Assembly: GCA_033439255.1 (NCBI GenBank)
Contig: CM065879.1
Coordinates: forward strand, 1,220,501-1,284,500
Source of the DNA: Hericium rajendrae
Taxonomy: Eukaryota > Basidiomycota > Agaricomycetes > Russulales > Hericiaceae
Reading direction: 5' to 3'
Length of the DNA: 64,000 nucleotides
Shown: positions 283-33,397 of the stretch, piece by piece
How positions within the stretch are numbered: position 1 is the stretch's first letter
How the letters are laid out: the number at the start of each line of letters is the position of its first letter
Notes under the pieces: model-generated
The model's database searches: none
What the model was told of the DNA's origin: nothing
What the model saw: the letters and a program-made list of their open reading frames with translations, nothing else
Made by a program: the position numbers and the translations under genes

Positions 283-3026
283 ATGGCGCCGAATCTCGAC
301 GACATCAACCAAGTGAGTCCCGGTATAAGTGTTGATGCGTAGTTCCTGACGCCCTGCAGACCGCCATCTACATCCCCTATGAGGGCCCTGGTTCGTGCTA
401 CACGCGTGCACCCTCTGCCACCTTCTGACCCTTAATTGCACCTGTCCAGATGCTGCAGAGGACGAAAATGCGCAAGAGAACGGCGACGACGACTATGCAC
501 CTTTCGGAGAGCGAGACATTCCGGGCGGATGTGAAATGCGCATGGAGGCATATAGAGCTGCGTGGAAGGAGTGTCTGGATCGTGTCCAGGTGTGTACCGC
601 GCATCTCGTCCCGTGTCGCTGGCTGATCCGCATACAGAGTATCGTCAAAAGACTGCACGCACTCGTGGCAGACGAGATTGTGCACGAGATCGAGGACGCG
701 TATGAGAATGTGCTTCCGGGTCTGCCGTACGCCGAGCTGCCTGTTTTCGCGGTATCAGGTGCGTCTGCCCGTCTCTCGATCTCATCCTGAATGTCTAAGC
801 TATGCTGTAGCACCGTCGTACGGGTCTGCGTTCGTGAATGAGCTTGCAACCCGGATGGAAAGCGGAGACGAAGATAGCGAGGATCAGGATGCCGACCATC
901 CATCAGCATATGTCGTACACCTCCGCCCACCAGATTGTCCGAACATCATGTCTGCCATGAAAGCGCTGGTGACTGGCTTTGTGGAACGCTCTCCGGATGG
1001 GCAGGAAGGTGTGTACGTCTCGTGGTCGTTCTCGGCCCGTTAGTAATGCTATGAATGGAAGTGAAACGGAAGCCGACGACTTCGTTGGCGAGCTACGATA
1101 TTGAACTGCTGAAAACGTGGTACGAAGTCGTACGCGACAACTGTGGTAAGTCCGCCTAGTTTCGTTTCACGATGTTTCACTAAGTTGCCAGCCTAGATGA
1201 CGCAGAAAGCCTGCCTCCCTTAATCGTGTTTATGCACGATTTCGAGCAATTCGACGATGCTGTCATACAAGATCTATTCTACATCTGCAGGTTAGCAACC
1301 TATCCTCCGCAAGGATTTCAATAGCTGATATCTCGTAGTGCGCATATACCGCGCTTGCCGCTTATTTTTATTCTATCTTTATCATCGCCGCCTTCTCCCT
1401 CGTATATTCATTCAACATACCCTCGGTCTACTCTATCTTTGCTCCGAATGCAGACCTTCACGCTACCAGCAGGCATCGAAGTCCTCGAAGAAATCCTCAC
1501 GGAGGTCAGTCTTCCTTCTGTGTATTTGCATTCAGTCATACCAAACCTGCCCAGACCTTCTTTTCTTTGGATTTCGAGCCTCAAATCATGATCGGCCCAG
1601 CGGTCATCGAATACTTGACAGAATACTTCTCGCGATACGCGTCCTCGCTAGATGCCGTGCTCACGATATTGCAGGTGCGCTCATCACACGCTGACCGCAC
1701 CCCTCCATTGAAGCCCCGAAAGCTCGCACACCTGAAGCACTTCGACGAGCCCCTCGCCATCTTCGCGTCGCGCGACGCATCCGCAAGCCTCAACACCGCC
1801 TTCCTCTCGCAGCCCGCGTGCTTCGGCTTCCTCAACTCCCTCCTCGCCGCGTCGGTCGACGCGCACTCCGCGCGGTCCGCCTCGGGCTGGAAGATCCGCG
1901 ACATCCCGGCACTCCTTGCATTCGAGGAGCGCGCGCACGCCGAGTTCCAGTCGCGCTTGCGGCTGCTGCGGCTGTCGTTCCGCATGCTGCGCTGTGTCCA
2001 GCGCGTGCTGCTCGGCTTTGGGTATCGGAATGCGGAGATGGAGAAGACAGTGCCGGAGTTGATGGTCGCGGCGTTGAGGGGCCAGCTTGAGCGCGAAGGG
2101 AAGTATCTAGGGACCATGGTCAAGTCAGTACTTTCTGTCGTTGGTAGATTGCGCTACGCTGACGCCGCCTGCTTTTGCCCTCCTAGGAAACTCTCGCCGG
2201 ACAAGTTGGAAGTCCTGCTCTCGGAACTGCTAAAGCTCATCCGCGACCTCCCAGCGGAACGTCAACAGCCATTTGAGCCCGCCGCGAAGCACCTTACTGA
2301 TGCACTGCGCTCACTAGGCAGTCGACAGGGTGCTGATGCGTCCGCTCTGGCAGCTACGGAGGGCGAATGGCTGATTAGCTGGTTCTAGTAAGTCTAGTTT
2401 AGTTCAGCATGGAGGCTTGATCATGACTCTGTTCGGCCCAGCAACCACTTTGTCAGCCTTGAGGATCTGCAGCTCTGGGAAGTGTGGTACACTGGCTCTA
2501 CGCCATTCCCGTCGGAGGTCCGTATACTAGGGCTTGGCATATACACTCATGGCTGACGTCCACACAGCTGATCAACCCGTCTCCGCGCGCAACCGTGCTC
2601 TCCGGACTTCTCTACCCACACGAGTACGTCCAAGACAGCACACAACCACAAGGCGCGAGCGACGATGCCCCGTCTCGCCGTCGCGCGCTCTGGGAGCTCC
2701 CAGACACCACGATCCTGTTCCGCCGCTACCTAGAAGCCGGGCGCATGATCAATGTCTACGACTGGTACGAGTCCTTCGGCGTCGCGCTCGAGAGCCAGCG
2801 GCGCAAGATCGAAAAGCGCGAAAAGAAGGAAAGGGAGAAGGCGGGTGCGGAGCAGAATGGTGTAGGCGATGGGGAGGGTGAAGACGAGCGCGAGGAGGCG
2901 TGGAAGCTGCATGTGCAGGCGCGCTTCATGCGGGCGTTGCATGAGCTGGACTTTTTGGGCTTCATCAAGCATACTGGGAGGAAGGCGGATCATGTTATGC
3001 GGACTACGTTTGATGTGCCGGAATAA
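283..3026 (+). CDS. ORC3: origin recognition complex subunit 3
   Basis: Multi-exon gene for ORC3, a nuclear subunit of the complex that marks replication origins and loads the MCM helicase. The start ATG at 283 opens a short first exon (MAPNLDDINQ) followed by a GTGAGT donor at 313. Exons continue through introns at about 392-449, 590-640 and others of 50-60 nt. Family signs are the N-terminal helix around KECLDRVQ-SIVKRLHALV, a Walker-B-like strand (LPPLIVFMHDFEQFDD) leading to LFYICS, a central all-helical part (1567-2388), and the winged-helix end FLGFIKHTGRKADHVMRTTF, which matches the conserved ORC3 terminus. As in other ORC3 proteins there is no intact ATP-binding P-loop. All exons joined in frame. 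A charged, variable linker (KKEREKAGAEQNG) lies near 2820-2870. The exact position of some junctions is inferred. Confidence 0.9.
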
Positions 3027-3295: not shown

Positions 3296-3886
3296 ATGGG
3301 AAAAGGTGCAGCTCTTCGCTTTTGTTCGGTCCACAATGTGGTGTTGACTTTCTCGCACAGTTCACGGATCCCTCGCCCGTGCCGGCAAAGTCAAGTCGCA
3401 GACCCCCAAGGTCGAAAAGCAGGAAAAGAAGAAGACGCCGAAGGGCCGTGCTAAGAAGCGCATCCTTTACAACCGCCGGTGCGTTTGTCTGAAGTATCTG
3501 TCGTTTGCTAGCGTTGCTGACTTGTGATGTAGCTTCGTGAACGTTACGACGCTCCCTGGTGGCAAGCGGAGAATGTGAGTATTGCATTTTGATTTTGTCT
3601 TCCTCTCGGAAACGACATCTCTGTCGCAACATCTCTCCTTCAATATTGCCGTCCGCCATCACCTCTCGGGAAACATGTCCTGTCCCGACACTTTCGGCAT
3701 TACTCACCTGATGATACCAATCCGATCAAGCATAGTTCACACTGAAACTACCGTGTTGACAAAAATGCATCTAACGTCTTTCGCTCCTATCTGACCATCC
3801 ATTCCCTCTTCGTCTCGTCTTGCTCTCTGCCGCAAGCATTGATGCTGACACGTTTGTCCCTCAGGAACCCCAACCCGGAGAAATAA
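3296..3886 (+). CDS. RPS30: 40S ribosomal protein S30 (eS30)
   Basis: Four exons (3296-3305, 3361-3478, 3533-3574, 3865-3886) give a 63-residue basic protein starting [20 protein letters not shown] and ending GGKRRMNPNPEK. This is the eS30 protein of the small ribosomal subunit. It has no ubiquitin-like N-terminal fusion of the animal FAU type; the gene encodes S30 alone, as in yeast. Splice signals are canonical: the ATGGGAAAAG exon is followed by GTGCAG, and the third donor is GTGAGT at 3575. Introns 1 and 2 are about 55 nt, but intron 3 is 290 nt and carries the snoRNA described below. Ribosomal protein genes are usual snoRNA hosts. Confidence is high because length and sequence fit the family from end to end. 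Confidence 0.95.
3706..3797 (+). ncRNA. intronic box C/D snoRNA, snR60/SNORD80-like
   Basis: Inside intron 3 of RPS30. Box C core TGATGA at 3709-3714, box D' CTGA at 3742-3745, a C'-like TGTTGA at 3754-3759, and box D CTGA at 3791-3794. The 11 nt ending one base before D' (3730-3740) are the exact complement of GTGAACTATGC, which I recall as a conserved 25S/28S rRNA segment. The 15 nt directly before D (3776-3790) pair with ATAGGGGCGAAAGAC in 25S rRNA with one G-U wobble. These two targets are those of yeast snR60 and human SNORD80 (2'-O-methylation near yeast A817 and G908, numbering from memory). The paired boxes, spacing and two rRNA matches make chance unlikely. The terminal stem is weak. 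Confidence 0.8.
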
Positions 3887-6329: not shown

Positions 6330-9300
6330 TCATAGACCCCGAGTTCTTGGCAAAAGGTGGATTAGACCACAGGCATCCACAAATCTTTTAAGGTATGCTT
6401 GAGCCACAAGGTAGTTCCCTGCCAGGAGCTCAGTACGCCCCATAATCAGGCCCCAGATATGAGTTTTTTGGGGCATTGCATTCAACTGGAATCTCGAATT
6501 GTCAAAATGGCCCTCGTCTGCATACAGGCCCGCTCTACAACATGACATTTCAATCATTAGACCCCCTGGATCACATCCATCCTTCCGATCCCCTCCTAGT
6601 CCAGACATCTCATCAATAAGCCGTTTGGCTTCCGCAAAATTCCTCTCACGCATTTCTACTGCAAATAAGCCGAGTAGGCCCTGGAGCCGGCCACCTGTGA
6701 TGCCGGGAAAGTCCTGCGTTTGAATAAGTACCATATTAAACTGCTCTCGAGCACGACTCCAGTTGCCTGTCCAGAGTTCGAGGTTCCCGTTTTCACTGTG
6801 GATGAGATTTTTCGTTATTTGACGACACCTTACCCAGCCTGGTCGAGTATCGCTGTTACATCCTCGGATTGCCTCTGAGAAGAACTGCTTTGCCCGCGTT
6901 GTCTCCCCTTTCTGAGCCAACATGACACCTCGAGCGAAATTAAGATAGATCTCTTCTGTAAGATCCTTATGATCGTGTAAGATACGAGCAGCTTCTTGGA
7001 ACGACTTCTCTGCTGCTGCCATTTGACCCCATAGACATTGCTCTTCGCCCACTGCCCGCCAGCATCTTGCTTCTGCGCACTTCGCTCCAGCAGAAGAATA
7101 CAATTGCTTCGCATTTAGCAGAAAGTCAAACATCACATCAACATCATAGACGACGACAGCAAGAGTCGACAGCGCTTCCATGCAGCTCCCTTTCCTCTCT
7201 GCCACGACCGAAGCTGAGACTTCACGTGTACCCTTCTTGCCAATCAACGAGCGAATGCTGTTGCGAAGCTTCAAGTAACGCTCGTTTTTGGGGTGCACAA
7301 TCGTGTTAGGAACCCGAATAGCCTCCATCAGAGTGCAGATCGCCGCAACTGGTCGTGGCTTGTGCATCAGCAAATGTGATATGAAACTTGCACACATCGT
7401 GCATGCCGCTATAGCATCCTCAAGTAGAGTTAGCTCCAGGATTACTGTGCGCTCAACATTGACATCCTCCGCGGTGATCCAAGCACCTCCCTTGACGATC
7501 TCCCCACGAGAACCACACGTCTCTAGACGTTCACGATAATAAGTGCGCACGCTAGCTAATAATGGTACGGCTCGCGGAAGGGCACCGTTATACGTAGTAG
7601 AAATATAAAGGCGCACGGGAGCCAGCATAGTCACATAGACATCACTTCGGTATGTGATAGATTGTTTGCAAATAGCATCCACAATCATAGATGCGCCAGT
7701 CAACGATGGGAACAGACCACCAAGTTCCCGCCTATCCACACCCTGCGGAAGGAAGGCAATGATCTGCAATACATGCAACACGCTGTCTCCGAGCTTCTTG
7801 AGTGATGGGCTGTTGAGCGACAGCTCCAATGTCACGATCAGGCTTTGGCTCTTGCCATCGCCGCTATGAAGCAAATCAGTCTGCTGTCGGTTCCAAGTAT
7901 CCAGCAGGTCCTCGAGAGACCAGTCGTTCTCACGCGCAGCATGAGCAAGGAGATTGATTGACAAAGGGTGGTAGTCGAGAGACTGGAGCAGCGAATCGAT
8001 CACATTGGTATCTTTGATACCCTTATGAAACACGGCCATAAAGGCCTTGCGCGCAGCAGTGGGCTTCAGAGCTGGGACGGCAATAACGGCCCACAGGACA
8101 TTCGACGGAAGCGCCCGACTACGCGTCGTGAGCAGAACCACAGTCAAAGCCAGAGCCCCGAGGCTATCAACAGCATCAGCAATGCGCGTTTTATCCTGAG
8201 CCGCATCCAAAAACGTCTCCGCATTGTCAAGGACCAGAAGCGAAGGTGCCACCGACAGATGGGCACAGATCATGCTGAGGCGGTCGGATCCGCCCAGAGT
8301 AAGACCCAGAGTACAGCCGATACGATCCAGAAAGACGTCATAAGAGACCTGAGAAGCGTCCATGTCGTCGTAGCGGACGAAGTAACGCTGGGCGCCGAAC
8401 TTTCCTGTGATGCTTGGCTCATTGAGAATCGCCTTGGCCAAGCAGCTCTTCCCAATGCCTCCAGTGCCGACAAGGGCAACATGACGAGATTGAGCTAGTA
8501 GAACCGACACCTCGTGAACGAGATCATTGCGTCCGACAAACAGGGATGGCCTTCTGGGAGGAAGTATGCCCTGTGGCGTGGTCCTTAATTATTCGAAGTC
8601 GATTTCTCAGCGGAGGCTTCAATCATCAGAGCACAGTTACGACTCACTGTGATCCTCCCTCGCAATGAAACCGCTCAAACATGACGATTATTTCTTCCAG
8701 TTTGACATTGGTGAGGATATTGAGCTCCGTCTAAACGAAACATGTCTGCCAACTTGCATAGTTTAAATCAAGAAGACACCCACATTGAATATTTGCAGGA
8801 AGCGACTGAGATCGCGCTGCCAGCCAGCAATCTTCTCCTTATTCACAGATACAGCAAGCGTGCGCGATACAACGCTGGCATGCGATTTGTCCGCCACAAG
8901 ATCCTGTATGCCGTCGATGGACCTTCGTCTCGATCAGACATGCACCCTATGAGACCAGGATAGCATCCTTACTTTTTCAAGTCGCCGATGGCTCGCATCA
9001 CAGGCTCGCTCAGCGCGCTCTTCGAACTGGCCGTCGTCGCGCGCCAGAGCAAGAGGCTGACCTCGTAGCACTGGCGCGCGAGCTCCTCGAAGTCCTCCTT
9101 GTTGCGTATGGTGCTCTGGTGTGCAGATGAGCCGCGATCGGCCACGATTGGCGGCATTTACTCCTTACCTTGACGATGCTCAGGATGCCCGACAACGTGG
9201 ATAGTAAGCCTTTCGCGATCTCGTTTGGGATGGCGTCCTTGACGCAGTTAATGGTATCGATGGATGTCGACAGCGCTGAGACGATCTTGTCTCTTCGATC

Positions 9301-33293: not shown

Positions 33294-33397
33294 GGGCATG
33301 TAGCTCAGTGGTAGAGCGCGCGCTTCGCAAACCAGCTGATTATGTAATCAGGGTCGTCACGTGCGCGAGGCCCAGTGTTCAATCCACTGCTTGTCCA
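33294..33397 (+). tRNA. tRNA-Ala (anticodon CGC) with 32 nt intron
   Basis: Cloverleaf read directly: acceptor GGGCATG (33294-33300) against CTTGTCC; D arm GCTC...GAGC; anticodon stem CGCGC/GCGCG; loop TTCGCA-T with anticodon CGC at 33326-33328; T arm CAGTG/CACTG with loop TTCAATC; discriminator A at 33397. A 32 nt intron (33330-33361) sits after position 37, the standard place for nuclear tRNA introns, and is removed by tRNA endonuclease. A run of T directly downstream (33399-33405) is a good RNA polymerase III terminator. Box A (TAGCTCAGTGG) and box B (GTTCAATCC) are present. Confidence 0.93.

Follow-up and report, generated by a model that had tools for sequence, protein, structure and literature searches.

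We have analysed a stretch of 64 kb of the Hericium rajendrae genome (hereafter the window), which corresponds to C2:1220501-1284500 in an assembly of 46.8 Mb and 19 contigs; coordinates below are window positions. The third intron of the RPS30 gene in this window appears to hold the only snR60-type box C/D small nucleolar RNA (snoRNA) of the genome, as judged from the best 60 of 2854 candidates. Very probably, this RNA is spliced out with its intron, trimmed, and guides the methylation of two sites in 25S ribosomal RNA (rRNA). The snoRNA is real, ordinary and correctly named by the original prediction, which had proposed a molecule of the snR60/SNORD80 type from the sequence of the intron; it is a new member of an ancient and well-known family, and the sole point of some interest is its host gene.

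Identification of an snR60-type snoRNA

The window was scanned with cmscan against 4227 families, and two matches were obtained at the curated cut-offs, one with a transfer RNA (tRNA) and the other with RF00309 (snosnR60_Z15). The latter lies in RPS30 intron 3, on the forward strand at 3705..3794, with 44.3 bits for a cut-off of 41 (E = 0.00036); these coordinates are those of the Rfam match, and the ends of the RNA itself may differ. We observed that it agrees within a few bases with the predicted extent of 3706-3797, and this Infernal search bears out the assignment to the snR60 family. In the whole assembly one RF00309 match was reported, again in this intron (E = 6.3e-5), when the best 60 of the 2854 first-look candidates were scored.

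Other models were also considered between positions 3300 and 4200 with E values up to 10. A second match, with a family of the same clan as RF00309, had a lower score and was dropped by the tool. A CRISPR-repeat model, taken as another RNA that might lie there, was rejected with 18.1 bits for a cut-off of 40, as was a Tetrahymena snoRNA model that has the same D guide, with 16.6 bits for a cut-off of 75. A scan of viral contigs for the snoRNA gave no match, and a search for snR39, meant for comparison with the snoRNA hosted by RPL7, gave no match either, in the controls as well, and thus carries no weight.

The four boxes are present at the places where they had been predicted, all on the forward strand. 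Box C (TGATGA, 3709..3714), box D' (CTGA, 3742..3745) and box D (CTGA, 3791..3794) are exact, and box C' (TGTTGA, 3754..3759) has one mismatch to TGATGA; the spacers between C and D', D' and C', and C' and D are 27, 8 and 31 nt long. Internal D' and C' boxes are usual in box C/D snoRNAs, and a terminal stem is frequent.

Pairing of the two guides with rRNA

As rRNA targets we used L003 and L004, two eukaryotic large subunit (LSU) rRNA loci, neither of which comes from H. rajendrae. They were the two loci returned by a genome-contig pattern holding both target stretches of LSU rRNA; since the targets were part of the pattern that selected them, they demonstrate that rRNAs of this kind occur in eukaryotes and are no independent test of conservation. 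Both match LSU_rRNA_eukarya, L004 partially (model positions 675-1447 of 3401). Their records are titled as bacteria (a Tissierellia metagenome-assembled genome and Mangrovicoccus ximenensis), and the presence of eukaryotic LSU rRNA under such titles points to foreign DNA in the assemblies concerned. The pair of LSU targets had no match in a scan of viral contigs.

On both loci, the D' guide (3730..3740, forward strand) forms 11 Watson-Crick pairs without wobble and the D guide (3776..3790, forward strand) forms 15 pairs including one G-U, so that the pairing predicted for both guides was found on the rRNA of other eukaryotes. The D'+5 base faces the A of GUGAACUAUGC and the D+5 base faces a G of AUAGGGGCGAAAGAC, in L003 as in L004. 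We take the two target stretches to be the yeast sites Am815 (D') and Gm906 (D), the assignment of these numbers to the stretches being our assumption. The two target bases are 92 nt apart in both loci, and the site numbers published for Neurospora crassa, yeast and human differ by 91 (PMC2780460, PMC3511168), in agreement with the predicted distance of about 91-92 nt. The duplex formed by positions 3726-3741 has an energy of -20.7 kcal/mol on L004 and -18.6 kcal/mol on L003; that formed by positions 3774-3790 reaches -25.1 and -24.8 kcal/mol, respectively.

To set these pairings against a background, the CTGA words of the window were used (495 on both strands, the snoRNA's own included). Eleven Watson-Crick pairs precede 3 of the 495 words with L003 and 2 with L004, and at least 15 pairs with G-U allowed precede 2 words with either locus. 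Each guide alone is therefore rare, not unique. The weight rests on the fact that both guides stand in one box frame and are aimed at the family's own sites; the independent evidence for the snoRNA is the Rfam match together with the published tables. What is established is that the sequence matches the family, carries the boxes, pairs with conserved stretches of LSU rRNA from other eukaryotes, and lies within an intron.

The RPS30 host gene

RPS30 extends on the forward strand from its start codon to its stop codon at 3296..3886 and has four exons, the borders of which were set by translation. After removal of three GT-AG introns, the spliced translation gives a product of 63 residues that matches Pfam PF04758 (Ribosomal_S30) with 108 bits for a cut-off of 27 (E = 2.6e-31). 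A six-frame search of the assembly gave one match, over exon 2 of this gene. Intron 1 (3306..3360) and intron 2 (3479..3532) measure 55 and 54 nt; intron 3 (3575..3864), which hosts the snoRNA, measures 290 nt and is indeed the longest of the three.

Upstream of the snoRNA, at 3603-3688 on the forward strand, intron 3 also contains two hairpin-like stretches with similar starts, which begin with CTCTCGGAAAC (3603-3626) and CTCTCGGGAAAC (3663-3688). Directly 5' of RPS30, open reading frames are found at 1567-3026 on the forward strand, which presumably resemble origin recognition complex subunit 3. On inspection by eye, an open frame of 726 residues on the other side (6330-8510, reverse strand) resembles a P-loop NTPase that contains a repeat region. 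The tRNA of the window (33294-33397, forward strand) scores 51.5 bits with Rfam and was not called by ARAGORN with bacterial settings; it probably holds an intron, since it covers 104 bases for a model of 71 positions.

Release of the snoRNA from the intron

We infer that the snoRNA is expressed, released by way of splicing and used in rRNA methylation. RPS30 splicing would free intron 3, debranching would follow, and exonucleases would trim the intron until the box C/D core, bound by proteins, is left. The resulting small nucleolar ribonucleoprotein would then guide 2'-O-methylation of two nearby 25S sites, the D' guide directing it to an A and the D guide to a G.

Box D lies 70 nt 5' of the 3' splice site, and in mammals a distance of about 70-80 nt from this site suits intronic box C/D snoRNAs. 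By pattern match only, a candidate branch point CTGAC (3845..3849, forward strand) has its A at 3848, which is 54 nt downstream of box D and 16 nt upstream of the 3' splice site; another candidate is TTGAT at 3839-3843. In N. crassa, snoRNAs lie at distances from the 3' splice site similar to those seen in Drosophila (PMC2780460). In Fusarium without the debranching enzyme, five intronic snoRNAs are lowered (PMC9606315), a result consistent with filamentous fungi releasing snoRNAs from their introns after splicing.

Weighing of the evidence and of other explanations

Several observations count against this reading of the intron. The RF00309 score is only 3.3 bits over the cut-off. The base 5' of box C (3708) is a C and not a purine, and the published box C consensus, RUGAUGA, begins with a purine (PMC2780460); we do not treat this as excluding, because it is a consensus position which RF00309 writes in lower case. 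No terminal stem was found next to boxes C and D. Folding of the 10 nt 5' of C with the 8 nt 3' of D gives +3.3 kcal/mol, with 500 of 500 shuffles as good or better, and flanks of 20+20 and 60+54 nt are no better than shuffles. In the Rfam alignment, most of the positions that the model reserves for the terminal stem are left empty. An outer stem of 5 bp (3695-3699 with 3828-3832) is equalled by 23% of 500 shuffles and, not being significant in four flank sizes, was rejected as a substitute for the terminal stem. The missing stem was not treated as excluding either, because such a stem is not among the features given in the available passages of PMC2780460. From the 5' splice site to box C there are 134 nt, which is longer than the usual range in N. 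crassa, mainly 41-60 nt (PMC2780460), and the 25S rRNA of the species itself was not found in the assembly. The boxes stand as predicted, but in two details, the base before box C and the terminal stem, the case is weaker than the original prediction implied.

The absence of a stem and of the purine, with a score just over the cut-off, would be in line with a decayed copy, that is to say a relic which is no longer made while another snR60 gene does the work. We consider such decay improbable: both guides are intact, as are boxes C, D' and D, box C' has one mismatch, and the intron holds the sole RF00309 match reported in the assembly. A second, more divergent snR60 copy may exist, since that search scored the best 60 of 2854 candidates. 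The wobble in the D guide is no sign of decay, because the same U is present in human U80. A likeness to a guide RNA that arose by chance is hardly credible, even though a few of the 495 CTGA words of the window do follow 11 Watson-Crick pairs or 15 pairs with G-U. Indeed, each guide fits one of the two sites that belong to the family, and their order is correct; the E values of the covariance model, in the window with all families and in the assembly, indicate more than chance.

A last explanation accepts the snoRNA as real but assigns it a separate promoter, within the intron or close to it, so that it would be made independently of RPS30 splicing. The 134 nt of intron before box C leave room for such a promoter, but box D lies at about the distance from the 3' splice site that is best for splicing-dependent release, and we regard this possibility as remote. 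An snR60-type snoRNA that is released from intron 3 by RPS30 splicing is by far the explanation that we favour.

Ribosomal DNA in the assembly

The LSU target region had no match in the assembly with patterns and DNA probes, which were used without a fungal control. A search of the assembly for the 5.8S family gave no match either; 9 of the 14 control genomes matched. With both the 5.8S and the LSU target sequences undetected, the nuclear ribosomal DNA array may be missing from the assembly. A probe for the LSU 5' end detected one short fragment only, on another contig (C4:1193455-1193489, which is L005:3456-3490 and L002:1501-1535). This fragment is on the minus strand, with 97% identity over 35 bases, is by eye about ten bases longer, and lies inside a transposase-like stretch. 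The open frame past it (L005:3520-4005) has a weak match with DDE_3, of 21.1 bits, under the cut-off of 28.6.

A ribosomal protein gene as host

The interpretation first given to this intron was supported in part. The snR60 family (RF00309) and intron 3 of RPS30 (PF04758) as host both hold; a host switch of snR60 may have taken place. Twenty-seven ribosomal protein genes host snoRNAs in Drosophila (PMC2246290), and the RPL7 intron, which in yeast hosts snR59 or snR39, has the same position in 82% of the fungi studied (PMC8476143). The movement of snoRNAs between introns is described as ongoing (PMC3511168). A change of host is therefore plausible but ordinary, because introns of ribosomal protein genes are common hosts and snoRNAs move between introns. 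RPS30 was not named as host of snR60 in the titles, abstract openings and passages surveyed, a partial coverage that is compatible with an earlier publication, and we found no literature joining SNORD80 with 'ribosomal protein S30'.

More tentatively, the only snR60 of this lineage might have relocated to RPS30. A gene for a 40S protein would then, through its output, set the supply of the guide for two methylations of 60S rRNA, and the stemless snoRNA would need its intron position for release; we hold this to be possible but rather doubtful. The finding adds a host gene to those listed for this ancient guide, and provides a data point on how snoRNAs reach the introns of ribosome-related genes. 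Intron 3 of RPS30 deserves annotation and should not be taken as dispensable. The views of how such guide RNAs work are not changed.

Comparison with known systems

Yeast snR60 is an independent gene. Like the snoRNA of H. rajendrae, it is placed under RF00309, with the sites Am815 and Gm906 (PMC3511168), and it has been named as a substrate of Rnt1p (PMC4334505). N. crassa CD48 is likewise an intronic box C/D snoRNA, and its D' and D guides point to a pair of LSU sites separated by 91 nt (PMC2780460). It measures 91 nt, lies in an intron on chromosome V, has snR60 and U80 as homologues, and is listed with the targets Am797 (through D') and Gm888 (through D) of 26S rRNA under the evidence codes N and R (PMC2780460). 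As for its host gene, neither 'S30' nor 'ribosomal protein' occurs in the main text of that paper.

The same kind of host is found in Suberites sponges, where SNORA62 lies in the last intron of FAU, the RPS30 homologue, in three species (PMC4515611). SNORA62 is however an unrelated snoRNA of the H/ACA class, and it is apparently missing from the FAU intron in a fourth Suberites species (PMC4515611).

Human U80 and U77 are placed under RF00591, which belongs to the same clan as RF00309 (PMC3511168). The primers printed for SNORD80 (U80) share the D guide and box D with our snoRNA, positions 3776-3791 and 3780-3794 being identical; the common sequences are GTCTTTCGCTCCTATC and TTCGCTCCTATCTGA, including the U of the G-U pair (PMC6856654). 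At box C, TGATGATA is identical to a stretch of a printed U80 primer, and the D' guide shares GCATAGTTCA with a printed U77 primer (PMC6856654). SNORD80 targets A1521 of 28S rRNA and, unlike the snoRNA in RPS30, is hosted by GAS5, as stated in the original prediction; GAS5 is a non-coding gene that contains ten snoRNAs (PMC6856654).
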